Made by a program: the position numbers and the translations under genes
Notes under the pieces: model-generated
The model's input: only the letters and a program-made list of their open reading frames with translations
Told to the model about the DNA's origin: nothing
Databases searched by the model: none
Source: a virus
Length of the DNA: 26,468 nt
Strand: one strand, 5' to 3'
IMG/VR virus record: IMGVR_UViG_3300025420_000018
Location: 1 to 26,468 of that record
In this document: positions 1,804 to 22,859 of the stretch, in pieces
Position numbering within the stretch: position 1 is the first letter of the stretch
Layout: each line of letters opens with the position of its first letter

Positions 1804-4800
1804 ATGAGCCTGACGACACTTCCTCCTGTTCCTCCGGTCGCTGACGCTGACCGATATTATGCAATCACCCCTGCCGGGAAATCCGTCACAACATTAGATG
1901 TGCCGTTTCCGATTTACGGTGATGGGTCAGATTTATTAATCAGAGTTGATACGACATTAGAGTTAGACGCCTCTAAATATACGTTGGTATCAAAATCTGG
2001 CCAGGCTCTTGATGTAATTCCGCAGCCTATTACAGACGGTCAAATTAATTTTGATCCTCCTGTTATCTGCGACACTTTAGAAATAATCGGCAATATTCGC
2101 CCAAGACAAAATGTAATGCCGACTGCCTCTGGCATTACGCGCAGAGAGTTTAATCAAGACAACGGTTACATAGTCTCAACCCTTCGTGAATTGTATTGGA
2201 AAACAAACAATATTCCTTCTGGCCGTGATGGGCCTTGTGGCCCGATGGGGCCTCAGGGGCCTAAAGGGCAAGATGGCGCGCAAGGGCCTCAGGGCATACA
2301 GGGTTCTCAGGGCGGTCAAGGCGACGCAGGAATTACTGGCGCGAGCGGCAGCGATGGCCCGGTTGGGCCTCAGGGTCCAGTTGGTCCGGCTGGCCCTCCC
2401 GGTGGAAGCGGTGGTCCGGCAGGCCCTCAGGGCTTGCAGGGTATTCAAGGTATTGAAGGTCAGCAAGGACGATTAGGGCAGCAAGGGCCGCAAGGTATTC
2501 GTGGTCCAATGGGGCCTCAGGGGCCGTCAGGTATTCAAGGAATTGAAGGGCCTCAGGGGCCAATGGGCGGCACTGGAATTGCCGCAGATGTTGTCTTTGT
2601 CGCGTATGTAGCGACACCAGAAAAACTTTATGCGACGGGCATTATTCCAAAAGATTGGGACGGCAATAATCGACCAAACAACGATATTCAATTTAAAGTT
2701 GGTCAGGCTGTTTTATTTCATTCGTCTGATGAGGTTTGGTCTTATTCAACCAATGATTGTGGTCAGACAACTGGTTGGATTAATCTTGGAAAAATTGTTG
2801 GGCCGCAGGGCGTTCGTGGCCCGCAGGGTATTGCAGGTCCTCAGGGTGACGAAGGGCCAATAGGGCCTCAGGGAGCGCAAGGCGTTCCAGGTCCTCAGGG
2901 GCCGCGTGGTGAGCAAGGCATTGCAGGTCCGGCGGGGCCAGAGGGGCTTCTTGGTCCAGAGGGTCCAGAAGGGCCTCCTGGTCAAGATGGAAAGCCAGCA
3001 ATCGTTGCGAAGTTAAAAGGTGAGTTTGTTAATCGTTCCCCATCAGAGCTTCCGTCTAATGGACTTATTCCAGCAAATTGGGATGGTCCGGGCAAGCCAC
3101 CAACTCCTGTTCAATTATCTATTGATGATGGTCTGACTTACAACGGAGCGTTGGCTGATTACTTAGGGCATTTGTTTATTTTTGTTGGGACGGCTGGCGT
3201 AGAGATTGATGGATGGGTTGATGCTGGACGTATTGTTGGGCCGGAAGGGCCCATAGGGCCGCGTGGTCAACCGGGCGAACAAGGGCCTCAGGGTATTCAA
3301 GGAATACAGGGCGACCGTGGGCCAGAGGGGCCGGTTGGGCCACAAGGAAATGAGGGGCCTGCGGGGCCTAAGGGCGACCAAGGAAATGTTGGTCCTCAGG
3401 GTATTCCCGGTCCAGACGGGCCTCAGGGGCCTCAGGGCGATAGAGGCGCGTCGTTAATACTGCGTGGTGAAATTTATAACAGGTCGCCCGCAGAGCTACC
3501 AAAGGACGGTTTAATTCCTGCGAATTGGGATGGGCCGGGTCAACCCGTTGCGCCGCTGCAATTGAATTTAAGCGATGGTTTGTTGTTTCATACTGACAAT
3601 CGAAACATTTGGGTATTTATCGGGCCGGATTTGTCAGGTGGCGATGGCTATTTGAATGTTGGCGATGTGCGTGGCCCGCAAGGTGAGCAAGGGCCTCCGG
3701 GCGATACTGGCCCTGCGGGGCCTCAGGGTGAAGACGGCAAGCAGGGCGTTCAAGGAATTGAAGGTCCGGCTGGCCCTCAGGGAAATGAAGGGCCAGAAGG
3801 CGCGCAAGGAATACAAGGCCCACCCGGCCCGCAAGGTCCGGCTGGTCGCGCTGGTAAGATTGTTGGAAATTTTGGCGACATTAAAACTGTGGCCGACCTT
3901 CCTGCCGATGGTTTTTTCCCCGCGAATTGGGACGGTCCCGGCAAGCCAAAAGTTGATACGCAATTACTTGATGGCGATAGCCTCATATTTAATCCGCCTA
4001 ATGAGCAAGACCCTAATTACGGGCACGTTTATATTTGGGTTAATCAATCTGAAAACATTGATGGCGATTGGGCTGATGCTGGAAAAATTATTGGCCCGCA
4101 AGGCCCTGTAGGCCCGCAAGGCCCTCTTGGTCCAGAAGGGCCTCAGGGAAAAGATGGCCCGCAAGGTTTGCAGGGTGTGCAAGGCAATCCCGGCCCGCAA
4201 GGCGAGAAAGGTCAGCAAGGTGATATTGGGCCAGATGGACCGCAAGGATTACCGGGGCAGAAGGGCGACACTGGCCCGCAAGGTCCACAAGGACCTAAGG
4301 GTGATCCTGGCACTGGCGTAACACCCGGCAGCAAAGGCGATATTTACGTCAACTCTGACACGTCTTGGGTAATCAATCCGTCTGTAGTTGATGGAAGTAA
4401 AATTGCACAAAGCGCGATTGATAATAGCAAAATTGCAAATGGAACAATTTCGCCAGATAAATTGAACAATACAGGTTCGTTGAATTGGGATGCCGCGACT
4501 GTCTTTGCAAAACAAATACAAATATCAAGTGGCATTATTTATGGTCAATCTGCGTCAAACTCTATTCAAGTAAGCGCAGCGGATTTTGCTTTTATAACCA
4601 ATGGCTCAATAAGCCAACTTAGGGTTGATGGTATCGGTAACACAACTATCAGGGGGTATCTTGGCTGCAATGGTTCGGTTATATCTGCTACTGGTGAAAA
4701 TTATCAATTAAAAATTGACGCAAACGAGGCGTCTATTTTCTGTGGTATTGGCTCCCAAGCTATTCAATGGAGGGCCAGCGACAGAGCATTCCTTATTAGA

Positions 4801-5211
4801 AGTCCAGTAGCTTATAAAACTGGTACAGATATTAATTGGACAGTATTTGCTGATGCTCAAATTAAAAAAGATGTTGTGCCATATTCAAAAGGTTTAAAAG
4901 AAATACTTGAACTTAATGTTCGTAATTTCAAATTTAATGGCAAATTGCAATATTATCCAGATGACGGTGAAGCTTATATTGGTTTTGTTGCGCAAGAACT
5001 TTTAGAAACGTCATTCTCAGACATCGTTAAGCCGTTCAAATATGATTTGACGGATGAGAAATGCAAAAAGATTGGCGAAGAAGAATTTCTTTCCGTCAAT
5101 TTTTCAGAAATTAATTACGCTCTTGTCAACGCCGTCAAAGATTTGGCAGCGATGGTGAATAAATTGGAAGCGCGGATTGAGGCTTTAGAAGGAAAAGCAA
5201 AAAATGTCTGA
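1804..5211 (+). CDS. Collagen-like tail fibre with T7-type N-terminus and S74-type chaperone domain
   Basis: A 1135-residue receptor-binding fibre. Residues 1-130 ([20 protein letters not shown], later [14 protein letters not shown]) resemble the T7 tail-fibre N-terminal domain that attaches the fibre to the tail. Five Gly-X-Y collagen-like blocks (about 140-255, 332-397, 480-550, 622-683, 764-838) alternate with four copies of a compact module containing [17 protein letters not shown] and ending WxxxGxIxGPQG. A slender shaft follows (840-1005). The last ~125 residues match the S74 intramolecular chaperone ([19 protein letters not shown]) that trimerises fibres and then cuts itself off. At the predicted cleavage site the usual Ser-Asp reads Ala1016-Asp1017, while Lys1021 is kept. 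There is no clear Shine-Dalgarno sequence before ATG 1804. Confidence 0.85.
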
Positions 5212-7585
5212 TGCTATCGGTCCGCAAGGCCCTCAGGGGCCACAAGGTTATACAGGCCCGCAAGGTGTTCGTGGTCCTCAGGGATTGCAAGGAGCGCAGG
5301 GGCCTATTGGTCCTATGGGGCCTGCCGGAAGCTCAGTAAAAATTATATTTTCTTTTCAAGATAAAACCCCGGATGAGTTGCCGCCAAGCGGTTTAATCCC
5401 TGTAAATTGGGATGGATTAGATAAGCCTTCTGCGCCTATTCAATTTGAAATTGGTGATGCTGCCGTATATCTCGGAACAAGTGATTGTTATATGTTTTCT
5501 GAAACAGCGCCCAACTGGATTAATGTTGGCAATGTGAGCGTTGTTGAAGGGCCACCTGGTCCGCAAGGGCCAAAAGGCTCTGATGGTGTTGACGGAAATA
5601 ACGGGCCGCAAGGGCCAGAAGGTCCGGCTGGTCCTCAGGGCAAGCAGGGACCATCCGGGGCAACTGATCCAGATACAATGATTGGCAGGAACAATTTGAG
5701 CGATGTTGCAGATAGAGCAATATCTCGTTCAAACCTTGGCCTTGGTAATTCAGCAACGCGCAATGTCGGCAATATCACTGGAACGGTTTGCGCTGGTGAC
5801 GACCCACGGCTAATCCAGAAGGCGGCTTTAGGTCTTAACGTGAAAGACTTTGGCGCTATCGGTGACGGCAATGCTGACGACACAAAAGCAATTCAAGCTA
5901 CGATTGACGCTGTAAAAGCAAGCGGAAGTGCTGGCGTTGTTCTTATTCCTGACGGCACATACAAAATCACAGACACGCTCGTTGTTGACAATTACTATGT
6001 TAGCATACAAGCGTTTGCTTGTTTTGATTGCCGCGCAATCACTGATAAAGCCGCAATTCAGATAGTTTCTTCTTCTGGCCCTGAGTGGCCGCCTAACTCT
6101 GGATACGGCGCAAACACGCCGTTCCTTCGCAAGTCCTATATATACGGCAATCTTCGCTTGATTGGACCCGGATGGAACTACACACAATCTATTGGCATTA
6201 ACTTTGACGAGCCAATAGCGGGAGGCCGTTCTGTGGCCTTCTTGAATAATGTTGGCATCGCTGGTTTTGGCGCTGGCATACGCCACGGCAAAAACTCATG
6301 GGGCGTTACTGTTGTTGGATGTGAAATCATGGCCAACGGCATAAACATTCTCCACGACAATACAGAAAACTCTGGTGAACGTCAGACGTATATATCGTGT
6401 CTTATTGCAGGCGCGTGGGCCGGCAATGTTGTTAATAATGAACCTTTTTCAGACATGTATTTTGAAGCGTGTTCCTTCGATTATCCTGGCGAAAGTTTTA
6501 ACGGGTTTGGTTATATTTCTGGAACAACGCTAACTATAACAAAGGCAAATTATGGTGGGTTAAATGTTGGCGATGAAATATTTAATATCGCCGGAACGAT
6601 AGCGCCCGGCACTAAGATTGTAAGCGGCTCTGGCAGTGTTGGGACTTATCAGATTAGTGCGTCTCAGAATATCGCGGATGGTGATATACAAGGACCTGCC
6701 GGGCCTCAGGTTATTGCTAATGCTGGCATAACTACATTTACTGATTGCCATTTTGAGGGAAGAAACTTTAACAATTCTGTTTTTAGAATAACAAATGCGG
6801 CTGTTATTATTAATGGCGGTGTTATTTTATATAACGCAGTCCCTCAGGTTTCTCCGTTTTCAGTAAACTGTCCGGTTTCTTACGATACCATATTGCAAAT
6901 GAACAATGTGAAGTCGTATGGTTTAGGTAAGGCCGATTATCTTGTTGCGTTAAGCGGTTCTGGAACGCCTCAAATCAGAGTTAAAAACTCAATTTATGGT
7001 CCGGTTCCTTACAGCCCTGTCATTTTATCAAAATTCAACAATGTATTGATGGATGGTGGGTTTGAGTCTGCTACACCTGTTGATGAGGCAATATTTGAAG
7101 ACACGGCGCCAATTACCAATAGAACAACTGGCTCAAATATTATTCTAACAACTAGCCCAAGTTATTCAAAAACAGGAACTCAATCTTTAAAAGTTCAAAA
7201 GGTTGGCGACGGTCCTTGTTGTTTTCTTGTAATTGCGCCTCTTGCTTTGCCTGGAAGTATTACAGGCTTTAAGTTTTCATACTTAAAGCCTGGTTCTGAA
7301 ACTGGTAATTTTTTTTACAATATGACTTTTGGTCAAATTCAGTTCACGACAAATGGTGTTCCTATATGGGCGTCTAAGCCGGGTTATTTTGGTTTTGCGT
7401 CTGAGACAATCACATTTACGTCAACGCCAGTCACAGGTTGGGTTGATAGAATAAATGCAGGCGTTTCCCCCGCTTGGGCGACCCACGCAATTATGTATAT
7501 GAACCTTAATCCTACATTTACTGGCGGTTCTATGTTTAGTCCCGGCTCTTTGTATTTTGACGACATAATTATCACGGAAATGTGA
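5204..7585 (+). CDS. Collagen-like tailspike with pectate-lyase beta-helix and CBM-like C-terminus
   Basis: A 793-residue probable receptor-binding or capsule-degrading spike. It has a collagen-like block (residues 5-42), one copy of the [14 protein letters not shown] module (about 44-115) also found four times in the preceding fibre, and a second collagen block to ~152. A fibre linker ([18 protein letters not shown]) follows. From ~213, [20 protein letters not shown] is the hallmark start of a pectate-lyase-type right-handed beta-helix. An ISGTTLT...[14 protein letters not shown] module, common in phage tail proteins, sits in the middle of the helix (~437-500). The end (GGFE...YFDDIIIT) looks like a carbohydrate-binding jelly roll. 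The start overlaps the previous gene by 8 nt, with AAGGA upstream. The substrate is unknown; the gene could bind or cleave surface polysaccharide. Confidence 0.82.
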
Positions 7586-8340
7586 TGATTGACCTTGGCA
7601 TTTTCTTTTCCTCAATCCGCAAGACATTATTCACCAACGGCCTGACTAAAGGTCAGGTCGATGGGCTGGAAAAGACAATTGCTTATTGGCAAGATAATTG
7701 GTCGCGTATGCCGCTTGATGAAATGGCGTATGTGTTAGCGACCATTTATCATGAGACAGGCAAGGTTATGCGGCCTGTCAAAGAAGGTGGCGGCGAAAGA
7801 TATTTGCGAAGCAAAAAGTATTGGCCATTTGTCGGCACTGGACTGATACAAATTACTTGGCGGCAGAATTGGGAACGGTGGGGCATTAAAACCGTAGAGG
7901 ATGGTCTTAGCTGGCCGATAGCTTTGCGGGCGACGTTTGAAGGCATGGTCACTGGCGCCTTCACTGGTAAGAGGCTGTCAGATTATATCGGCAAAGGTCG
8001 TAGGGATTACGTTAATGCGCGTCGTGTCATTAACGGCGTTGATAAAGCGCAGTTGATTGCAGGCTATGCAGAGAAGTTCCGCGCCGCGCTGGTTGCGGCT
8101 GAACAGCAAGAACCTATTGCGCCGCCAAAGCCGGACGTAGCGTCTGCCGAATTTATAGCAATGCTGAAACTGGCTTTGCAGGATGAGGCGGTACGCGAAG
8201 AAATAATCGCCATTGTCTTTCCAGATGAACCAGAGGCGGCTGAACCAGACCCGTTTGACGAACTGGATGATACTTACGGTCAGCAAGAAGAATTAGCTTT
8301 TGCTGACGCTGAGTATGACAGGGATGAGAGGATTGGATAA
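7585..8340 (+). CDS. Endolysin, GH19 chitinase/lysozyme-like
   Basis: A 251-residue protein that most likely cleaves host peptidoglycan at lysis. The N-terminal ~165 residues carry the lysozyme-like signature ATIYHETGKVMRPV, with the likely catalytic Glu in HETG, then GTGLIQITWRQNW, the counterpart of the GRGYIQLTW motif of GH19-like phage lysins. The last ~75 residues are an acidic tail (PDEPEAAEPDPFDELDD) not typical of the core fold. No signal peptide is seen, so a holin would be needed. ATG 7585 overlaps the tailspike stop as TGATG; an in-frame GTG lies 3 nt upstream. The position next to tail genes and before a small membrane protein fits a lysis cassette. Confidence 0.82.
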   Translation: MIDLGIFFSSIRKTLFTNGLTKGQVDGLEKTIAYWQDNWSRMPLDEMAYVLATIYHETGKVMRPVKEGGGERYLRSKKYWPFVGTGLIQITWRQNWERWGIKTVEDGLSWPIALRATFEGMVTGAFTGKRLSDYIGKGRRDYVNARRVINGVDKAQLIAGYAEKFRAALVAAEQQEPIAPPKPDVASAEFIAMLKLALQDEAVREEIIAIVFPDEPEAAEPDPFDELDDTYGQQEELAFADAEYDRDERIG

Positions 8341-8719
8341 GCCGCCTCCACCAAGGCGAAGACCGCCTCCTCAATACGATTACGAGGAACACTATACGCC
8401 GCCTAGTAGCGGGACAGTCTCAACCGTCTCTAATAGCCTGCTTGCCGCCTACAAAATCAATCCGATTATGATTGCTATGATATTGTTATTATTGGTAATT
8501 CTAGGTAGCTTGGGCTGGTATATGATGAGAAATGACGACCGTGTTTACAGTTACATTGCGGCGCGCGACCAGCAAACAGCCGACCTTTGGGACAGGTTGG
8601 TTGCTATGGCAAAGGATTGCAAGGAACTTGGCAGGGACAAAGACGCATACCCAAGCCTCGACTTTCCCAAGTTAACGACGCCGCCAATGCAGACGCCTCA
8701 TAAGCGGGACGGCAAATAA
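8315..8719 (+). CDS. Single-span membrane protein of the lysis region (holin- or spanin-like candidate)
   Basis: A 134-residue protein with a Pro/Arg-rich N-terminus (KPPPPRRRPPP), one strongly hydrophobic segment of about 22 residues (NPIMIAMILLLLVILGSLGWYMM), and a ~60-residue charged C-terminal part. The positive N-terminus suggests an N-in, C-out topology. It overlaps the endolysin end by 26 nt, so the two are probably translated together. That context suggests a role in lysis, as a holin or an inner-membrane spanin, but no family-specific motif is visible. The start is uncertain: ATG 8315, ATG 8324 and an upstream TTG at 8300 are all in frame, and none has a strong ribosome-binding site. 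Confidence 0.6.
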   Translation: MTGMRGLDKPPPPRRRPPPQYDYEEHYTPPSSGTVSTVSNSLLAAYKINPIMIAMILLLLVILGSLGWYMMRNDDRVYSYIAARDQQTADLWDRLVAMAKDCKELGRDKDAYPSLDFPKLTTPPMQTPHKRDGK

Positions 8720-8734
8720 ACTGTGCCGTATTTT
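8709..8734 (+). terminator. Weak intrinsic terminator at the end of the late operon
   Basis: A perfect 6-bp stem ACGGCA/TGCCGT with a 9-nt loop is followed by ATTTTG. It overlaps the TAA stop of the membrane-protein gene and is the last signal before attP. The short stem and brief T-run make it a modest terminator. Confidence 0.4.
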
Positions 8735-8740
8735 GTGCCT
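8721..8740. repeat. 20-bp direct repeat, left of attP (candidate arm site)
   Basis: CTGTGCC-n4-TTTGTGCCT. It matches a second copy at 8918-8937 at 16 of 20 positions, in the same orientation, on the other side of the tRNA-like core. Each copy holds two TGTGCC units 12 bp apart. The arrangement suggests integrase or Xis arm-type binding sites; this is an inference. Confidence 0.5.
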
Positions 8741-8823
8741 ACACAAACCGTTTTTGTTCTCGTTTCCTGCGTTTGGCGCGCTTGGTTTGTTCTAATCTCA
8801 ATATAACAAAATCAGAGACTTAA

Positions 8824-8870
8824 TGGCAGGAGTGACCGGGATCGAACCGATAACCCCCGGTTTTGGAGAC
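8824..8870 (-). other. attP: attP core: 3' half of a tRNA-Trp gene
   Basis: On the minus strand this segment reads as the 3' half of tRNA-Trp. It has the anticodon loop with CCA anticodon (GTCTCCAAAACC), a variable region, a T-arm with TTCGATC between 5-bp stem halves, the 3' acceptor strand CACTCCT, and encoded GCCA. The 5' half is absent: upstream sequence does not complete the anticodon stem, D-arm or acceptor. Phages that integrate in tRNA genes carry such a 3' fragment to restore the host gene. Its place next to int and between late and early genes indicates attP in a free phage genome, with the host trpT gene as attB. Confidence 0.85.
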
Positions 8871-8917
8871 GTGGATTTTCGGTTCTAATTGTTTGATATT
8901 TATAACTATAGTTTTTG

Positions 8918-8937
8918 CTGTGCCTAGATTTGTGCCT
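8918..8937. repeat. 20-bp direct repeat, right of attP (candidate arm site)
   Basis: This is the second copy of the repeat at 8721-8740, again with two TGTGCC units 12 bp apart. It overlaps the stop codon of int (TAG on the minus strand at 8926-8924). The core lies 83 bp from the left copy and 47 bp from this one. Confidence 0.5.
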
Positions 8938-9934
8938 TGGCATTCATTGCTGCTTCGGCTTCTTCGGCAGTCATGAAACTCAGGTAAATTTCAGTTGTCT
9001 TCACTGACGTATGACCAAGATATTTAGATAGCCCATAGATGGACATACGACCGCTTCTAAGCGCCTCGACGGCAAACAGGTGCCTCAGGTCGTGGAAACG
9101 GAAACGAGTAAATCCTGACTGTCCTGCGGCCTTGCGACGATAGCGGGAAAAGTCTGACTTGATATTAACAAACGGTTCGCCGCTTGGCTGGCAAAAGATT
9201 AATTTGCTTTCCAGTGTTCTAGGCTGGATTGCGAATAGTTGAATGGCCTCTTGCGATAAGGCTATGACGCGGCGCTTACGGCCTTTGCCAATTATTTCCA
9301 GCGTCCCGGCTTTGGCGTTAAAATCCTGCCATTTGGCTGTGACCAGTTCGTTTTGTCGGCAGCCTGTAAGCCATGCGGCTTTGACCAATGCGCCGAACCT
9401 TGGCGGCGCTGCGTCTATAACCATTTCGATTGAAGCGGCTTCTGGCAGCATAATCGGGTCGCGTCGTTCTTTAATGAGGCGGCGCTTGCTTAAAGTAGGA
9501 TTGCCCTCACGCCATCCTCTAGCCTCGGCATATTCGAGTACGCGGGACAGGGCGGTAAGGTCACGATGGATTGTTGCGGCGCTGGCGCCATTGCGGCGAC
9601 GGGCCTCCATAATCTCAGCGATTAATGCGCCGTCAATCTGGTCAATCTTTTTGCCAAGCAACCAAGGTTCAAGCATTTTGAGAGAAGTTGCGTAGCGGGA
9701 GGCTGTAGTCTCGCCTATTTGGCCGACTGCATGTTGCGACCAGGCAACAACCGCCTCCATATAGGTCACGGCGCTGCCAATGTTGTTGGCCTTTAGTCTT
9801 AACTCTTCGATACGTTTTGCGGCAATTTTCCGCGCAGTCGCAAGAGTGCTTGTTCGTAAAGATTGTCTGTATTGGACGCCGTTAATCGTCGCTTTAAGCC
9901 AATAGATTTGGCCTCTCTTGTAGAGATTTGACAT
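8924..9934 (-). CDS. int: Tyrosine recombinase integrase
   Basis: A 336-residue tyrosine-family site-specific recombinase that would join attP to the host tRNA-Trp gene. The catalytic residues are all visible: Arg193 (TGCRQNE), a Lys in GKGRKRR (~217), His281-x-x-Arg284 (HDLRH), His308 (LGHTS) and the nucleophile Tyr317 (TEIYLSF). The N-terminal ~60 residues look like an arm-binding region, followed by a SAM-like core-binding domain (~60-150). The start at 9934 has a strong AGGAGG 10 nt upstream that lies inside xis. The gene ends at the attP arm repeat, the classical int-attP order. No residue is missing, so it is probably functional. Confidence 0.95.
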   Translation of the reverse strand: MSNLYKRGQIYWLKATINGVQYRQSLRTSTLATARKIAAKRIEELRLKANNIGSAVTYMEAVVAWSQHAVGQIGETTASRYATSLKMLEPWLLGKKIDQIDGALIAEIMEARRRNGASAATIHRDLTALSRVLEYAEARGWREGNPTLSKRRLIKERRDPIMLPEAASIEMVIDAAPPRFGALVKAAWLTGCRQNELVTAKWQDFNAKAGTLEIIGKGRKRRVIALSQEAIQLFAIQPRTLESKLIFCQPSGEPFVNIKSDFSRYRRKAAGQSGFTRFRFHDLRHLFAVEALRSGRMSIYGLSKYLGHTSVKTTEIYLSFMTAEEAEAAMNAKAQI

Positions 9935-14068: not shown

Positions 14069-14082
14069 GTTGGCGAACCAAC
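14069..14082. promoter_or_regulatory. Operator-like inverted repeat downstream of pL
   Basis: GTTGG-CGAA-CCAAC has 5-bp arms. It is close in form to TTGGT-AA-ACCAA at 14984-14995 between the repressor and cro genes. It would lie just downstream of the pL -10, where a bound repressor would block transcription. Confidence 0.5.
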
Positions 14083-14085
14083 ATA

Positions 14086-14120
14086 ATGGTCTTATAAAAC
14101 CATAAAAATGGCCGTGTCAA
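14086..14120 (-). promoter_or_regulatory. Leftward early promoter pL with operator over the -10
   Basis: On the minus strand there is a perfect -35 TTGACA (14120-14115), an 18-bp spacer and TATAAG (14096-14091). It drives the ParB-like/recT/exonuclease operon, whose first start is at 14022. An inverted repeat ATGGT-n8-ACCAT (14086-14103) is centred on the -10, so repressor binding would occlude it. The spacer carries TATGGT, resembling TATTGGT in the other two early promoters. Confidence 0.7.
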
Positions 14121-14268
14121 CCAGAAGAATGGTGTATTTGGATAAAATTTTTTGGTTTGTGGAAATGTCTAATAACTAAAAAATTGTTAAGAGGGGTTCT
14201 GTTTCTGTTCTTTTTTTGATATTATAGTTTTTGTATTAAATAGCAGGGTGTGGAAATGGAAAATTCGA

Positions 14269-17155: not shown

Positions 17156-17983
17156 ATGGCGAGAATTAGAACAATCAAGCCAGAGTTTTGGACAAGTGAA
17201 CAAATCGTCGAGTGTTCGACGACTGCTCGACTACTGTTCGTCGGCATGTGGAATTTTGCTGATGACGGCGGCAATCTTCCTGCGTCGTTTAAGACGGTAA
17301 AGATGCAAATTTTTCCCGCCGATAATATCGACGTTGAACCGCTAATTTCTGAATTGTTTAGCGTTGGTCTGCTTGTTGAATATTGCGTAAATGGCAGAAA
17401 TTATTGGCATATCACTGGTTGGCATCATCAAAAGATTGATAAGCCAACATACAAATATCCACGCTTCAATGACACAAATATCGTCGAACACTCGTCGAAC
17501 ACTCGTCGAGAAGTAGTCGATGCCTCGGCTACGGAAGGGAAGGGAAGGGAAGGGATAGGTAGAGGAAAGGATATATCTTCTTCACTTCGTTCAGAAGATA
17601 CGCGCGCGAGGCGCGCTGTTGCTGTCAACCGCTTTGATGAATTTTGGCAAGCATGGCCCAACAAGGTTGGCAAGCCTGTTGCGCTGAAAGCCTATGCAAA
17701 GGTTTCCAGTGAACACGACGCCATCATGGAAGGCTTGGCGGCGTATATCAAAAACAAACCAGCCGACCGTTCTTGGCTCAACCCCTCAACATTTTTGAAC
17801 CAGCGACGTTGGGAAGACCGCCCTGCGTCTGTCAGTGCGCCCGTACGCGAAGGCAAGGGCGACTGGTCTGCAAACCTAATGAAAGAGATTGAACGGAGAT
17901 TAGACGATGAGCAATCTGAACAAAGCCCAACTATTGCTGAGACTGTGGAATTGCTATCCTTCGACGGCAAGTCTTGGGCCTGA
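17156..17983 (+). CDS. Phage replication protein (O/DnaD-like)
   Basis: A 275-residue protein. Residues 1-105 are a well-known phage replication N-terminal domain: RIRTIKPEFWTSEQIVECST, ARLLFVGMWNFADDGGNLPA, FSVGLLVEY and HITGWHHQKIDKPTYKYP, a winged-helix-like DNA-binding region. A polar, low-complexity linker follows (~106-155). Residues 160-225 are the second phage module: FDEFWQAWPNKVGKPVALKA and RSWLNPSTFLNQRRWED. It probably binds the phage origin and helps load the helicase, as lambda O does. The linker DNA contains iterons and a purine tract, a candidate ori. ATG 17156 has GGGAGGG 6 nt upstream. The last 77 nt overlap the next gene. Confidence 0.82.
   Translation: MARIRTIKPEFWTSEQIVECSTTARLLFVGMWNFADDGGNLPASFKTVKMQIFPADNIDVEPLISELFSVGLLVEYCVNGRNYWHITGWHHQKIDKPTYKYPRFNDTNIVEHSSNTRREVVDASATEGKGREGIGRGKDISSSLRSEDTRARRAVAVNRFDEFWQAWPNKVGKPVALKAYAKVSSEHDAIMEGLAAYIKNKPADRSWLNPSTFLNQRRWEDRPASVSAPVREGKGDWSANLMKEIERRLDDEQSEQSPTIAETVELLSFDGKSWA
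17481..17572 (+). other. ori: Candidate phage replication origin inside the replication gene
   Basis: Two exact 11-bp direct repeats TCGTCGAACAC (17481-17491, 17492-17502) plus a partial third (17503-17510) are followed by an uninterrupted purine-rich tract with four GGGAA units (about 17533-17555) and then ATATAT. A related inverted repeat TCGTCGA-n4-TCGACGA lies upstream at 17205-17222. The repeats encode the low-complexity linker of the O-like protein. Lambda's ori has the same layout: iterons, then an asymmetric tract, inside gene O. Confidence 0.55.
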
Positions 17984-19015: not shown

Positions 19016-19066
19016 CTAGTCTCCCGCTCATGGCCGCGAGGGCGTCTCTGGCGGGATTGCCCTCGC
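19016..19066 (-). repeat. Relic cassette leader and hairpin beyond the array terminator
   Basis: On the minus strand a perfect 8-bp stem GCGAGGGC/GCCCTCGC (19066-19036, 15-nt loop) is followed by GGAGACTAG at 19024-19016. This is the array's usual hairpin plus leader. Only tiny open frames (13-27 codons) follow, so it looks like a decayed or displaced cassette. It lies between convergent operons; the 18959-19133 interval otherwise holds only the terminator. Confidence 0.4.
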
Positions 19067-19133: not shown

Positions 19134-19415
19134 TTATCGTCCAAAGGTTTGACACAAGCCACCATTGCAAACGACTTGGTATTGGTCGCCTGTCGGCGGG
19201 TAGACGTGAGTGCTGCTACCGCCATCCCATGTCGATGTTGTGCTGCTGTAGTAGCCCTGACTGCCAACGCCAACGCAGCCCGCGCTGTGGCAATTTGAGA
19301 CGCTGCTATCAACGCCCGGAGGCGGCGACGCATAGTCTGCCTCTTGCGCCAAAACTGAGGGCGCGCACAGTTCTACAATTGCAATAATCGCTGCGGTTTT
19401 AAAATAGGTTTTCAT
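19134..19415 (-). CDS. Small secreted protein with signal peptide
   Basis: A 93-residue protein with a classical signal peptide: MKTYFKTAAIIAIVELCAPSVLA, in parts, with probable cleavage after VLA-Q. The mature part is Gly/Ser/Tyr-rich and contains four cysteines in two pairs (NCHSAGCVG and VCNGGLCQT), suggesting two disulfides in the periplasm. ATG 19415 has the array leader (AAAGGAGACTAC) 3-9 nt upstream. The start lies 17 nt inside the preceding gene. No family recognised. A cell-envelope-acting early protein, for example against superinfection, is one possibility. It is the last gene of the array. Confidence 0.7.
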   Translation of the reverse strand: MKTYFKTAAIIAIVELCAPSVLAQEADYASPPPGVDSSVSNCHSAGCVGVGSQGYYSSTTSTWDGGSSTHVYPPTGDQYQVVCNGGLCQTFGR

Positions 19416-19659
19416 TGTAGTCTCCTTTAATTTCCAAGTCTTGTATCTGGCGGTCAACTTCGCTTTTGATTTGCAGATTTGTTTCTACCTGGCAGTATTT
19501 ATTCAGCATAAGAACGGCCTCATCAGTGTCACTATAAAACTGTAAGACTGTTAAGTATGGCTCTTGGTCTGATGAAAAGGCGACGGCTATTCTGTCGCCT
19601 GTATCGTATGCAATAGCGCGATAGCCCGTCTCTTTGTTTTGAACAATGTATTTTTCCAT
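19399..19659 (-). CDS. Small hypothetical protein (86 residues)
   Basis: Soluble: MEKYIVQNKETGYRAIAYDT, GDRIAVAFSSDQEPYLTVLQ, then a helical end (TNLQIKSEVDRQIQDLEIKG). The alternating strands at the N-terminus suggest a small alpha/beta fold. GGAGACTAG lies 4-12 nt upstream of ATG 19659. It follows an internal terminator-like hairpin (19705-19737). It overlaps the next gene by 17 nt, so that gene's ribosome-binding site is within its last codons. No family recognised. Confidence 0.65.
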   Translation of the reverse strand: MEKYIVQNKETGYRAIAYDTGDRIAVAFSSDQEPYLTVLQFYSDTDEAVLMLNKYCQVETNLQIKSEVDRQIQDLEIKGDYNENLF

Positions 19660-19704
19660 AAGCTAGTCTCCAATTGATTTGCAAGTCTGGCGGTATTTAA
19701 GCAA

Positions 19705-19737
19705 CAAAAAAACGCACAAACATTTGCCTGCGCGTTT
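19705..19737 (-). terminator. Intrinsic terminator inside the array
   Basis: On the minus strand a 9-bp stem AAACGCGCA/TGTGCGTTT (one G-T pair, 10-nt loop) runs into TTTTTTTG. It lies between the 87- and 86-residue genes, so the last two array genes may be expressed at a lower level or by readthrough. Confidence 0.65.
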
Positions 19738-19744
19738 CTTCTAT

Positions 19745-20008
19745 TCAGTTTAAACCTTCTTCGATTAAGTCAATTTGCCTTTCAAGCATTTCAAGGTCGT
19801 CTTGCATTGAAGCAAGGTTTTGCAGCATTAAAACGCAGTCTTCTTTTGTATAAGGTTCGCCTTGATACATTTTATGCGTTTTTTCTGCGGTTTGGTTTAT
19901 TAATTTTGAGAGAGAGTTTTTTATTATAATTATATTTGACGCAACGCGCTCTCTTAAAAACGCTAAATGTTCCGTTTCTTTGTCTGACATAATTTCTATT
20001 GATGCCAT
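19745..20008 (-). CDS. Small coiled-coil protein (87 residues)
   Basis: Mostly helical: KETEHLAFLRERVASNIIII, KNSLSKLINQTAEKTHKM, then MLQNLASMQDDLEMLERQID with regular hydrophobic spacing typical of a coiled coil. The single Cys and acidic end (LIEEGLN) are unremarkable. ATG 20008 has AAAGGAGATTGG upstream, a variant of the array leader. It is preceded by an intergenic hairpin element and followed by an internal terminator. No family recognised. Confidence 0.65.
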   Translation of the reverse strand: MASIEIMSDKETEHLAFLRERVASNIIIIKNSLSKLINQTAEKTHKMYQGEPYTKEDCVLMLQNLASMQDDLEMLERQIDLIEEGLN

Positions 20009-20028
20009 ATTCCAATCTCCTTTGTTGT

Positions 20029-20095
20029 CTTGCTGGCGCATAGTGTGCTTGGCGCACAGTGAAGGGCGCGCACGTCGCGCCCTCTCTTTGCGTCA
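20029..20095 (-). repeat. Intergenic hairpin element (copy with extra stem)
   Basis: This copy begins with the TGA stop of the 61-residue gene followed by CGCAAAG. It holds an 8-bp inner stem AGGGCGCG/CGCGCCCT, an additional TGTGC/GCACA stem, then GCGCCAGCAAGACAAC before the GGAGATTGG leader of the next gene. Confidence 0.7.
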
Positions 20096-20278
20096 ATAAT
20101 TGTCTGGAAAGATAACAGCCCATGTTTTGCGCCCCGGCAGTTTTACAATGTCGGGTTTTTCTCCGAAAGAAATAATGCCTTCGCAGAAATAATTGTCCAG
20201 CGCGTCGTCTGCTTCTATGTATGTTTTGTGCATAGAATAGACATAATAAATTTTGCCATTGTGTAACATGTCGCGCAT
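20093..20278 (-). CDS. Small hypothetical protein (61 residues)
   Basis: MRDMLHNGKIYYVYSMHKTY, then DALDNYFCEGIISFGEKPDI and PGRKTWAVIFPDNY, an aromatic-rich, probably beta-rich small domain. The start at 20278 is 4 nt before the stop of the preceding gene in reading order, with AGGAGACTAAGACA as leader; an in-frame ATG 18 nt earlier (20296) overlaps that leader and is less likely. Its stop TGA is the first codon of an intergenic hairpin element. No family recognised. Confidence 0.6.
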   Translation of the reverse strand: MRDMLHNGKIYYVYSMHKTYIEADDALDNYFCEGIISFGEKPDIVKLPGRKTWAVIFPDNY

Positions 20279-20282
20279 TGTC

Positions 20283-20537
20283 TTAGTCTCCTGCATATTC
20301 TTGGCAAAGCCGATAGTAACAATACTCTTCCACGCTGTCTGGTTCTGGGTCGTCTGCCAGTGGGCCGGGGCGATACTGTGACGTAGACAGTGCGCTATAT
20401 AGGTTTGACCATTGGCCTCCGTGATAGTGTGACGCAAACCAGTAGATGGCTGCTTCAATATCAAAGTCGTCGGCTTCGTGCGGGCTGTATATTTCGCGCA
20501 GCATTGCGCGCATATTGTCTGCGGTTGGGTCTTGCAT
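20283..20537 (-). CDS. Small acidic hypothetical protein (84 residues)
   Basis: Acidic and helical at the N-terminus (DNMRAMLREIYSPHEADDFD), with an aromatic patch (IYWFASHYHGGQWSNLYSAL) and an acidic, Tyr/Cys-rich end (SVEEYCYYRLCQEYAGD). Such acidic small proteins are common among phage anti-host proteins, which is suggestive but not evidence of function. ATG 20537 has AAGGAGACTAGAA upstream, and hairpin element 20561-20612 precedes it. It ends just inside the leader of the next gene. Confidence 0.65.
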   Translation of the reverse strand: MQDPTADNMRAMLREIYSPHEADDFDIEAAIYWFASHYHGGQWSNLYSALSTSQYRPGPLADDPEPDSVEEYCYYRLCQEYAGD

Positions 20538-20560
20538 TTCTAGTCTCCTTACTGGGTTGT

Positions 20561-20612
20561 CTTGCTGGCGCAAGCTGAGAGGGCGCGCGTTGCGCCCTCT
20601 GGGTTTGCGTCA
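20561..20612 (-). repeat. Intergenic hairpin element (canonical copy)
   Basis: Starts with the TGA stop of the 93-residue gene, then CGCAAACCC. A 9-bp inner stem AGAGGGCGC/GCGCCCTCT (5-nt loop) is enclosed by an outer CGCAA/TTGCG stem, followed by GCCAGCAAGACAACC and the GGAGACTAG leader of the next gene. There is no T-run after the stem. Confidence 0.75.
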
Positions 20613-20891
20613 TCGTCCTAAGACTTGCTTTGCGTCTTCAAGGCTGCGGTATTCGTTGAATAGTTCGCGCAGTCGTTTCTCTTTTGCGATATTGTCGCGC
20701 TTGAATTTTAAAACGTGCGTTGGGCCGCCATGCCAAGTCATTGCTAGTCGGTTGTCAGCGTCGTCTATGTGAACGGTGTCAAACTCTATCATGCCGTCTG
20801 CAATTTCGCGCAAGGTTCTTACAGTTGCCTGTAATTGCGTTTCGTTGCGTTCGGGGCGAATTTCAACTTCCATCGTCAAATATGTCTGCAT
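20610..20891 (-). CDS. Small hypothetical protein (93 residues)
   Basis: Looks like a small alpha/beta protein: MEVEIRPERNETQLQATVRT, LREIADGMIEFDTVHIDDAD, TWHGGPTHVLKFKRDN, then a basic helix (AKEKRLRELFNEYRSLEDAK). The ribosome-binding leader is AGGAGACTTGAACA. It sits between two canonical hairpin elements, making it the clearest single cassette of the array. No family recognised. Confidence 0.68.
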   Translation of the reverse strand: MQTYLTMEVEIRPERNETQLQATVRTLREIADGMIEFDTVHIDDADNRLAMTWHGGPTHVLKFKRDNIAKEKRLRELFNEYRSLEDAKQVLGR

Positions 20892-20910
20892 TGTTCAAGT
20901 CTCCTGTTTT

Positions 20911-20959
20911 CTTGCTGGCGCAAGCTGAGAGGCGCAAGCGCGCCTCTGGGTTTGCGTCA
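20911..20959 (-). repeat. Intergenic hairpin element (canonical copy)
   Basis: Starts with the TGA stop of the 63-residue gene, then CGCAAACCC. The 8-bp inner stem AGAGGCGC/GCGCCTCT has a 4-nt loop and differs from the other copies by paired changes. It ends TTGCGCCAGCAAG before the leader of the 93-residue gene. Confidence 0.75.
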
Positions 20960-21148
20960 AGAGTGCGTGTAGCCGTCTTGTTCAATGCCAAGCCACATTC
21001 CCCATAAGTAAATCATGAGGCAGTCGTAGCCGCCTCCAAAGCGGCGTCTGAATTGCCTGTAAGTTTCGGTTGTTGGATTGTCGCCATTTCTTGCGCGCTG
21101 ATACAATTTAAACATTGCGGCGCGTTGCGCTTTGGTTGTTGGTGTCAT
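20957..21148 (-). CDS. Small basic hypothetical protein (63 residues)
   Basis: Basic N-terminal half (TTKAQRAAMFKLYQRARNGD, NPTTETYRQFRRRFGG) and a hydrophobic, aromatic C-terminal helix (YDCLMIYLWGMWLGIEQDG). It may bind nucleic acid or lie on the membrane. ATG 21148 overlaps the previous stop as ATGA, and GGAGACTAGGACA lies inside that gene. The stop begins an intergenic hairpin element. No family recognised. Confidence 0.62.
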   Translation of the reverse strand: MTPTTKAQRAAMFKLYQRARNGDNPTTETYRQFRRRFGGGYDCLMIYLWGMWLGIEQDGYTHS

Positions 21149-21378
21149 TGTCCTAGTCTCCGGGTTGGCGTTTGCTTCATAGCGTTTGAGTAGTGCATGA
21201 ATTTTGTATTTGCTTTGGGATAGTGAAAGGCGGTTAGCGTTATGCCGTTCGTGCCATACCAGCGCGACGGTTTGCTGTCGGGGCCGCATTTAATCCATTG
21301 GCCACGCTGCAAGGTTAACGTGCCGTTTCTTAGGTCTTCGAGATAAGGCCATACATCAAAAGCTTTTGTGTATTTCAT
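21145..21378 (-). CDS. Small hypothetical protein (77 residues)
   Basis: MKYTKAFDVWPYLEDLRNGT, then LQRGQWIKCGPDSKPSRWYG and TLTAFHYPKANTKFMHYSNA. It is aromatic-rich and compact, with a likely beta core. AGAGGG lies ~10 nt upstream, different from the common leader; the gene follows the 43-residue membrane protein by 4 nt. Its end contains the leader of the next gene, in frame with the codons for RRLGQ. No family recognised. Confidence 0.65.
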   Translation of the reverse strand: MKYTKAFDVWPYLEDLRNGTLTLQRGQWIKCGPDSKPSRWYGTNGITLTAFHYPKANTKFMHYSNAMKQTPTRRLGQ

Positions 21379-21382
21379 CGCC

Positions 21383-21514
21383 TTACCCTCTCATTCTGCG
21401 ATAGAGTGCGACGGCTTCTAGCGTGTAGTAAATTGCTGTCACTATGAAGGTGATGGTTGCGGCGCCCATGACTGCAAAGGCCGCTAAAATCCATAGTAGG
21501 TCGAGGTTTTCCAT
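21383..21514 (-). CDS. 43-residue membrane protein
   Basis: MENLDLLWILAAFAVMGAAT, then ITFIVTAIYYTLEAVALYRR and MRG. It has one or two hydrophobic helices with a positively charged end, so the C-terminus probably faces the cytoplasm. AGGAGAC lies 6-12 nt upstream of the ATG at 21514. The stop is 4 nt before the next gene. A short length and tight packing support a real gene, but no homology is recognised. It is the second gene after ardC. Confidence 0.6.
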   Translation of the reverse strand: MENLDLLWILAAFAVMGAATITFIVTAIYYTLEAVALYRRMRG

Positions 21515-21567
21515 TTTTCTGTCTCCTGTGTTCTAGCTGGCGGGCTAGTGTGCGAATTGCACAAGCT

Positions 21568-21589
21568 AGGGCAGGGGTTAGCCTGCCCT
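21568..21589 (-). other. Divergent intergenic hairpin after ardC
   Basis: A perfect 8-bp stem AGGGCAGG/CCTGCCCT with a 6-nt loop lies between the ardC stop and the 43-residue gene. It lacks the CGCAAACC and GCGCAAGC flanks of the other copies and has no T-run, so it is only loosely related to them. It may be a weak terminator or processing site. Confidence 0.45.
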
Positions 21590-21600
21590 ATGTTCTGCAA

Positions 21601-22491
21601 TCATGCGGCAATGGGTTGCTGCGTTGCGTTTACAGTGTCGCGCATGTAGTCAACTGCGCGGCTTGCCTTGGCGGCTGCCTCAACAATCAAGCGGTCATTG
21701 CGTCCTAAGACCTGTGACCAATGGTCGAGATAGGCGGCGCTGTTTTGTAGTGTGCCGCAAGCCGTGTTTGCTTCGTTGTTGAAGCCAAATTCAGCGCAAC
21801 AAAATGCTGCGCCAAGTTCTGCAACTAACTCCTCGGCGGCGTAGCTATCGTCACCAAAGCGGCGCCCGAATTGACGGTCTAGGCGTGACTTGCTGCCTGT
21901 CCAATGTGTCAACTCATGAAATGCCGTTGAGTAGTATTCGTCGGCGCTTCCGAAAGTCACAAAGTCTGGCAGCATGATAAAATCACGCGGCTCTTGTGCA
22001 TAATACGCCCGGCTTTCGCCATGCCGTATGTCTGCGCGTGTCGCCGTCATAAAGGCGTCTGCGTCTGCGTTGCGCTGGTCTGGATTAATCTCGATAGGTT
22101 TGACTGTTTCGAGGTTTAAGCCGTCACATTGCGCGACATTGAAGACGGTGTAGGATTTGAGAAAAGGTATTCTGACTTTTTTGCCAGTTTCTTCGTCAAT
22201 CTTTTCGATTGAATTGACGTAAATAACTGTCTCGCCTTTTTCGCCTTTTCTAACCGTTCCGCCTTTTTCGTTGGCTTGTTTGAATGTTAGCCAATCGTTT
22301 TGGGCGTATCCTTTGTCATTTCCGACCATCCAAAGGATGACGGTATTGATGCCCGAATATGCGCGTTGGGTTGTTGCGTTGCGTGGCAAGCCTGACCCGG
22401 TTTGACCCGTCCAAGGCTTGCGCCACGGCACGACGCCCTGCGCCATTTGAGCAAGGATTTTGTCGGTTATTTCTTTGTGTAGGTTTCTCAT
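21601..22491 (-). CDS. ardC: ArdC-like antirestriction protein
   Basis: A 296-residue two-domain protein. Residues 1-125 are the ArdC N-terminal single-strand DNA-binding domain (EITDKILAQMAQGVVPWRKP, SGINTVILWM, KGGTVRKGEKGETVIYVNSI). Residues 145-290 are a zincin-like metallopeptidase domain with the HELTH motif (His192, Glu193, His196) and the downstream EELVAELG glutamates as likely third zinc ligand. ArdC proteins protect incoming DNA from host restriction. It is first among the larger genes of the leftward array, has GGAGACTAG 4-12 nt upstream, and is preceded by a hairpin element. The full domain set is present, so it is probably active. Confidence 0.92.
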   Translation of the reverse strand: MRNLHKEITDKILAQMAQGVVPWRKPWTGQTGSGLPRNATTQRAYSGINTVILWMVGNDKGYAQNDWLTFKQANEKGGTVRKGEKGETVIYVNSIEKIDEETGKKVRIPFLKSYTVFNVAQCDGLNLETVKPIEINPDQRNADADAFMTATRADIRHGESRAYYAQEPRDFIMLPDFVTFGSADEYYSTAFHELTHWTGSKSRLDRQFGRRFGDDSYAAEELVAELGAAFCCAEFGFNNEANTACGTLQNSAAYLDHWSQVLGRNDRLIVEAAAKASRAVDYMRDTVNATQQPIAA

Positions 22492-22518
22492 GTTCTAGTC
22501 TCCAAGAGTTGGTGTTTT

Positions 22519-22569
22519 CTTGCTGGCGCAAGCTTGAAGGGTCATGTTTGACCCCTCTGGTTTGCGTCA
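22519..22569 (-). repeat. Intergenic hairpin element before ardC
   Basis: Begins with TGA-CGCAAACC, where the TGA is the in-frame stop of the small open frame at 22567-22662. The inner stem GGGTCA/TGACCC replaces the GC-rich stem of the other copies while pairing is kept. CTTCAAGCTTGCGCCAGCAAG, in parts, leads to the GGAGACTAG leader of ardC. Confidence 0.72.
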
Positions 22570-22662
22570 TAAGAGACTGAAAGGGTCGCCCCGCATCGGG
22601 CGTATCGTTAAGAGGGAGACAATTGTTGCGCCGCTAGGCTTTCCCTCTTTCGGCTCTCTCAC
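22567..22662 (-). CDS. Possible 31-residue leader ORF (GTG start)
   Basis: GTG 22662 opens a frame coding for REPKEGKPSGATIVSLLTIR and PMRGDPFSLL, ending at the TGA that starts the hairpin element before ardC. In the other complete copies of that element the TGA is always the stop of a gene, so this frame may be a real cassette or leader peptide. No ribosome-binding site is seen and the start is not certain. An internal ATG would give only nine residues. Confidence 0.35.
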   Translation of the reverse strand: MREPKEGKPSGATIVSLLTIRPMRGDPFSLL

Positions 22663-22775
22663 CCGTTAAGTTTGCTGTCGGCTTTCTTTCCATCCGAGGC
22701 AGCCAGCGAGAGAGGCGGAAGCTTTTGGTTTATGTCTGTTCCGGTTGCTTCATCCGGCGTATGTCCATTAACTAA

Positions 22776-22798
22776 TACCAATATTCTGGTATAGTCAA
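22776..22798 (-). promoter_or_regulatory. Candidate promoter and operator of the small-gene array
   Basis: On the minus strand TTGACT (22798-22793) is followed by an inverted repeat TACCA-n6-TGGTA (22776-22791) holding GAATATTGGT, which also occurs in the cro promoter. The -10 is poor (TATTAG at 15 bp or TTAGTT at 17 bp), so the promoter may need activation. A leader of about 280 nt would precede ardC. Confidence 0.45.
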
Positions 22799-22859
22799 GC
22801 AAGAAAAACAGGAAATTGGTAAAATAATGCAATGTTGGTTTAGAAACAGCGTGTTAGGC

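Follow-up and report, generated by a model that had tools for sequence, protein, structure and literature searches.

The window analysed here, the whole 26,468-base virus record IMGVR_UViG_3300025420_000018, came from a temperate tailed phage and contained a leftward operon in which the antirestriction gene ardC was followed by nine small open reading frames (ORFs) of 43-93 aa, up to an intrinsic terminator at 19115-19094 (minus strand). Our main subject was the short leader repeated before most of these genes and the structured start module found upstream of it at five of the ten array starts. The same operon was present in the sister contigs L007, L008, L009/L010 and L017 (partial). The 296-aa ArdC (21601-22491, minus strand) possessed the N-terminal and the zincin metallopeptidase domains expected of its family (Pfam ArdcN, 1.1e-38, and MPTase-PolyVal, 1.5e-41; PHROG 7245, 3.9e-82). 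It shared both Pfam domains and the HELTH motif with the ArdC family; the protein itself was ordinary, and the novelty lay in the operon. A preliminary description of this DNA had placed about ten small genes of 43-93 aa without a recognised family behind ArdC. The identity of ArdC and the size range stood, while the number was corrected to nine, and for none of the nine did Pfam, PADLOC or the functionally named PHROGs provide a confident match. Because of this lack of a confident family, only ArdC and the context pointed to an anti-defence role, and we could only infer that the array was an anti-defence or host-takeover bank.

All nine ORFs were on the minus strand. Next to ardC was a 43-aa ORF with a hydrophobic stretch (21383-21514), followed by a 77-aa ORF (21145-21378) that had a weak match to PHROG 21585 and no leader at its start (21378). 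The 63-aa ORF (20957-21148) used the leader GGAGACTAG at 21153-21161 and had relatives in Roseobacter and Sinorhizobium phages, and the next ORF, of 93 aa (20610-20891), was 92% identical to a gene of L007. An acidic 84-aa ORF (20283-20537; pI 4.2) had a homologue behind a different leader in an unrelated phage, L145; the AlphaFold model of this protein reached a mean pLDDT of 55.5 and was not used. The leader of the 61-aa ORF (20093-20278), GGAGACTAA at 20283-20291, included the stop codon of the preceding gene. The operon was completed by an 87-aa ORF (19745-20008), an 86-aa ORF (19399-19659; leader GGAGACTAG at 19663-19671 with CCGCCAG upstream) and a 93-aa ORF with a signal-peptide-like N terminus (19134-19415; leader GGAGACTAC at 19417-19425). 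A strong terminator-like hairpin with a T run was also located within the array, after the 87-aa gene (19706-19737, minus strand).

The window had six exact copies of the leader GGAGACTAG, all of them on the minus strand and none on the plus strand, compared with 0.01 copies expected from a third-order Markov model (at most one in 200 runs). Four copies were in the array (22495, 21153, 20540 and 19663), one preceded the parB-like gene (14026) and one was an orphan (19016). Variants were found at 20896, 20283, 20012 and 19417, and the leader at 21518 was GGAGACAGA. For the array genes and parB, the leader was separated from the ATG by 1-4 nt and its orientation was that of transcription. When two mismatches were allowed, 42 copies were observed against 36.7 expected, which was not above chance; thus, only the exact and near-exact copies directly before starts were significant. 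The preliminary description had assigned this leader to nearly all array genes and to the parB-like gene, and its positions were confirmed; the 77-aa gene had none. It had also considered that the leader might simply be the ribosome-binding site of every gene in the phage. This was not the case, since most genes outside the array lacked it; parB was an exception, and sequences related to the leader preceded int (GGAGGCTAG) and, at 17907, another gene (GGAGATTAG). The GGAG part of the leader was able to pair with the ribosome. The ACTAG part was outside this pairing (the longest match was 4 nt to the complement of a generic anti-Shine-Dalgarno sequence, which may not be that of the host), suggesting that the leader was more than a mere ribosome-binding site. 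The orphan copy (19016-19024, minus strand) was located past the array terminator, and only a 27-codon frame followed it, with no clear gene; L008 and L009 had a similar GGGAGACTAC at this place. An idea of 16S complementarity for a CCGCCAGC motif was too weak and was dropped.

Upstream of five leaders we found structured elements that were absent from the preliminary description. From upstream to downstream, the module consisted of one imperfect hairpin (P1, with single mismatches, and then a GC-rich P2 of varying sequence), a second hairpin (P3) and the leader. The full module was present at the five array starts with a real intergenic gap (22491, 21514, 20891, 20537 and 20008). The P3 stem was variable but complementary, and its loop was constant, either GCCA or CCGCCA; for example, stems were CTTGC/GCAAG and CTAGC/GCTAG in the window and CGCGC/GCGCG, GACGC/GCGTC and GTCAC/GTGAC in the sisters. 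The window and its sisters had eight internal junctions, and in every one of them P1 started at the TGA stop codon of the upstream gene. The ardC module (22492-22569, minus strand, like the other four) carried P1/P2, P3 CTTGC-GCCA-GCAAG (22519-22532) and leader GGAGACTAG (22495-22503). In the second module (21515-21603), P1/P2 began at the ardC stop and were followed by P3 CTAGC-CCGCCA-GCTAG (21533-21548) and leader GGAGACAG. The remaining three also began at a TGA stop, namely the modules at 20892-20959 (P3 20911-20924; leader GGAGACTTG at 20896-20904), 20538-20612 (P3 20561-20574; leader GGAGACTAG at 20540-20548) and 20009-20095 (weak P3 20029-20042; leader GGAGATTGG at 20012-20020).

Of 26 P3-type hairpins in this phage group, with near-identical contigs counted, 23 preceded GGAG..ATG; in other loci (1.14 Mb), one of 22 such hairpins did, and this single case had been fetched by matching the pattern; the background rate of a P3-like hairpin at a CGCCAG site was 0.8%. 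Moreover, arms paired better with their own partners than with swapped ones: only 2 of 5,040 permutations did as well for P3, and 1 in 100,000 for P2. Variable arms around a fixed loop are the behaviour of an RNA hairpin and the opposite of what a DNA site for a dimeric protein would show. P3 also preceded starts outside the array (int, window 9934) and sister ardC genes that lacked P1/P2. Upstream in the ardC leaders of both the window (22491-22575, minus strand) and L008 (2740-2793) was an AGTCTC(C) that is complementary to GGAGACT and, by pairing with it, may hide the ribosome-binding site. A looser P1/P3 pattern returned four extra viral contigs, all of them chance matches within coding sequence.

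Comparison with the sister contigs showed that genes had been exchanged at these elements. The places of ardC, the 41-43-aa membrane-like ORF and, in contigs reaching it, the secreted-type last ORF were fixed, and the interior differed. At three junctions, unrelated genes were joined precisely at the leader or the ATG. The common 63-aa gene was followed by a 93-aa gene in the window and by an unrelated gene of 91 aa in L008, and the window's 93-aa gene was present in L007 behind another neighbour. L007 and L008 shared 43 identical bases up to an ATG, then had unrelated genes, and became identical again over the final codons and the 3' flank; another swap point was exactly an ATG. The window matched L008 at 87% over 20889-21161, from the first G of one leader to the next ATG, and matched L007 at 93% over 20631-20927, starting at P3. 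In the same comparison the ArdC proteins were only 52% identical. Such sharp differences in identity (93% for DNA against 52% for the ArdC protein) indicated that neighbouring cassettes had separate histories.

The control of ardC also pointed to an early operon. Its promoter (22770-22798, minus strand), TTGACT-N17-TTAGTT, carried an operator, ACCAGAATATTGGT (22777-22790), in the spacer. Exact ACCA-N6-TGGT was found at three places only: at 22777, between the -35 and -10 of ardC, and at 14077 and 14120 in the parB-like promoter (operators within 14077-14133). At the same place, a sister contig had TTGACA-N17-TTATAA with CCAACTCAGTTGG, and its operator CCAAC-N3-GTTGG occurred four times, twice in the ardC promoter and twice beside regulator and recombination genes. 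The operator had a different spelling in each phage but was common to the sites of any one phage, and this suggests that ardC is controlled by a repressor of the phage itself. Since the ardC promoter shared its operator with parB, the operon is probably repressor-controlled and early. Thus, two earlier proposals gained support: early expression, from this shared operator and its differently spelled sister counterpart in the same places, and, strongly, modularity, from the same leaders preceding different small genes between ardC and the array end.

A number of other ardC phages used the same slot between stop and start codons in their own way. Of 75 other ardC loci, 11 had a common 9-mer leader, different in sequence from locus to locus, before three or more starts, compared with three loci when upstream regions were dealt at random and one of 46 control loci. 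In L087 (IMGVR_UViG_3300031998_001461, 5872-9778), the Twister-P5 ribozyme occupied five gaps before genes including ardC (four above the gathering score and one just below; best E 1e-10), and a hammerhead-II candidate another gap. Hammerhead-II was above the gathering score in Roseobacter phage CRP-3 (L142) and below it, with the core present, in L085 and L038. In a descriptor search, nine hammerheads were detected in these loci, and control DNA (356 kb) yielded none. Where the upstream ORF could be assigned, the ribozymes started -14 to +5 nt from its stop codon, like P1 of the window.

Several further features were recorded in other phages. In L087, a hairpin with a loop near ACAGCC followed the twisters and included the ribosome-binding site. 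The two hammerhead-II of CRP-3 (1719-2441) were just upstream of hypothetical genes with the common leader CTAACTTGGAGA. L145 (3320-3745), the unrelated phage carrying the 84-aa homologue, had a leader repeat of its own, GGAGTCT, and its gaps contained a hairpin pair likewise of its own, GTGTTC-ATTTC-GAACAC. L051 (IMGVR_UViG_3300045996_001357, 5124-9831) had the leader CACGGGGGT nine times, before at least nine starts, with long mismatched hairpins from near the upstream stop codon, and looks like a system of start-associated and extended start-associated sequences (SAS/ESAS, described in actinobacteriophages) in which the pairing is of the RNA type.

On balance, we considered it probable that the start modules act post-transcriptionally, on translation and probably on mRNA processing, and thereby make the genes of an early, repressor-controlled operon self-contained and exchangeable. 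A cassette would comprise one small gene, or two that overlap, together with a start module. This module would be a structured RNA that reaches from the previous gene's stop codon to the GGAGACTAG-type ribosome-binding leader and acts on RNA after transcription. The P1/P2 hairpin would separate or process the polycistronic mRNA between genes, P3 would provide the downstream message with a defined 5' hairpin beside the ribosome-binding site, and the common leader would allow immediate translation of an incoming gene. The leader repeats, with about 40 identical bases, may serve as homology for gene swaps by the phage's own RecT/YqaJ pair, both members of which it encodes. Finally, and this was the weakest step, the gene products, like ArdC, are probably directed against host functions.

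A number of observations weighed against this model. The element was carried only by the window and five sister contigs, three of them near-identical. The P1 and P2 arms were picked from predicted folds, which favours self-pairing; the genome-wide scan for P3 was freer of this bias. P3 was absent or very weak at the leaders of 20278, 21148, 19659, 19415 and parB. In CTTGCGCCAGCAAG copies P1 and P3 were mutually exclusive and competed for the same bases (0.5-1.8 kcal/mol apart), whereas in CCGCCA copies they coexisted, so that no single folding rule covered all. No Rfam ribozyme was found in the window at gathering score, and a search of two modules with E values of up to 10 gave none either; near-matches to STnc320, sR14 and Spy779816 were far below gathering scores and were taken as chance. 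Likewise, 13 further ardC loci had no ribozyme above gathering, and ribozymes were therefore one option rather than the rule. The step from translation alone to mRNA processing was argued only from position.

The closest competitor, possible if doubtful, was that the leader and hairpin merely tune or gate ribosome binding without mRNA cleavage, perhaps through an RNA-binding protein recognising the GCCA loop. The presence of P3 without P1/P2 at sister ardC genes and before starts outside the array agreed with this, as did the sister ardC leader, whose AGTCTCC is complementary to GGAGACT at the ribosome-binding site, and the precedent of SAS/ESAS, which are linked to start codons (PMC3203893). 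However, it left unexplained why P1/P2 start at a stop codon and why self-cleaving ribozymes occupy the same slot elsewhere.

The latter fact raised the alternative that P1/P2/P3 form an undescribed class of catalytic RNA cutting the early mRNA between genes, in the slot that Twister-P5 and hammerhead-II occupy in other ardC arrays. We regarded this as quite unlikely. Published ribozyme discovery relied on the same positional argument (PMC10085705), active hammerheads flank ardA in an Agrobacterium prophage (PMC3088659, PMC10085705), and the sister copy at L008 4258 starts with CGCAGA, like the Twister-P5 consensus. On the other hand, no Rfam model matched down to E 10, the P1 loops varied among copies, and few unpaired bases were fixed besides the P3 loop and the A.C and CC-CA internal loops. 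A broader proposal seemed a little less improbable, namely that P1/P2/P3 are either a new self-cleaving ribozyme or a stop-codon-coupled RNA switch, and that interchangeable RNA-processing elements (twister, hammerhead and those of the window, L051 and L145) are the standard connectors of plug-in anti-host arrays in many hosts.

A role in DNA, as an operator, promoter or site-specific recombination site of the integron attC type, was very improbable. Cassettes were indeed exchanged at the elements, and imperfect inverted repeats lay between small promoterless genes, but variable arms with a fixed loop reverse the pattern of a dimeric protein site, the elements had a single orientation, were linked to start codons and occurred outside the array too, the sole recognised integrase was the phage's own int, and the 3' crossover of L007/L008 fell within the coding end. 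The attC reading was rejected, as the core GTTRRRY was missing from all ten P1/P2 elements. Ordinary ribosome-binding sites with chance hairpins were scarcely credible. In favour of this reading, GGAG is a normal Shine-Dalgarno core and GGAG-type sites occurred elsewhere in the phage, but ACTAG was repeated despite being outside ribosome pairing, leader counts and hairpin statistics spoke against chance, and equally similar leaders were not seen before most phage genes.

Besides the operon, the phage encoded collagen-repeat tail-fibre genes, an integrase, YqaJ nuclease, RecT, a ParB-like protein, CI/Cro-type regulators, RusA and a DnaA-C domain protein. Two long genes with collagen triple-helix repeats (1804-7585, plus strand), probably tail fibres, also carried an endosialidase-chaperone or pectate-lyase-like domain. 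An alphaproteobacterial host was likely, because the proteins closest to YqaJ and ArdC were from alphaproteobacterial phages (Sinorhizobium, Caulobacter, Paracoccus and Brevundimonas). A search of GTDB genomes with the adjacent 151-aa protein found no host or prophage, and one by element pattern gave 46 stretches, none with a leader cluster, and no prophage. Against annotated phages, the array had no DNA match and its small proteins had weak relatives at most; the ParB protein search gave no match.

With respect to known systems, the early genes of phage T7 are separated by RNase III sites in irregular intergenic hairpins, and its operon opens with the antirestriction gene 0.3. The window operon, probably early as well, likewise has irregular hairpins between genes and opens with an antirestriction gene; in contrast to it, the T7 sites have neither a repeated start leader nor a second hairpin with a conserved loop. 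To our knowledge, no purpose has so far been established for the self-cleaving ribozymes that lie near phage genes. A report of 2011 described hammerhead ribozymes on the flanks of ardA in a prophage region of Agrobacterium (PMC3088659), and the search for new ribozymes by way of interchangeable ribozyme slots has been published (PMC10085705). The window module resembles these hammerheads in being a self-contained RNA element that lies among small genes and next to an antirestriction gene. However, it is neither a hammerhead nor another Rfam ribozyme, as it matched none of the covariance models for self-cleaving ribozymes in Rfam 15 (hammerhead, twister, pistol, hatchet, twister-sister and others).

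We read the window element as a start-associated element of a variant form not described before; the less likely option was a ribozyme or switch of a new type. In Cluster K mycobacteriophages and Cluster EF Microbacterium phages, SAS/ESAS combine an over-conserved repeat at the ribosome-binding site, in one orientation, with an upstream inverted repeat in the intergenic gaps of a subset of genes that belong to differing families (PMC3203893, PMC7302621). The window shares the over-conserved, strand-matched repeat immediately ahead of start codons, a conservation that extends past the bases pairing with 16S rRNA (ACTAG, judged by a generic anti-Shine-Dalgarno sequence that may not be the host's) and an upstream inverted repeat with a variable spacer at about half of the sites (five of ten array starts). 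The Cluster K authors concluded that the ESAS arms do not change as paired RNA would, and they preferred an explanation by DNA-binding proteins (PMC3203893). ESAS arms are reportedly conserved and their changes non-compensating, whereas the P2 and P3 arms of the window vary with complementarity kept and, in P3, a fixed loop. The sequence and the probable host group also differ, and gene exchange at the leader is visible in the window. Our model would tie SAS/ESAS, reported in 2011 with function not known, and the seemingly purposeless phage ribozymes to a single idea, that of connectors for swappable accessory genes, and the leaders could then serve as a search rule for candidate host-takeover genes. 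The window offers a start-associated element in which RNA-type covariation, the ribozyme slot of other ardC phages and exact exchange boundaries come together.

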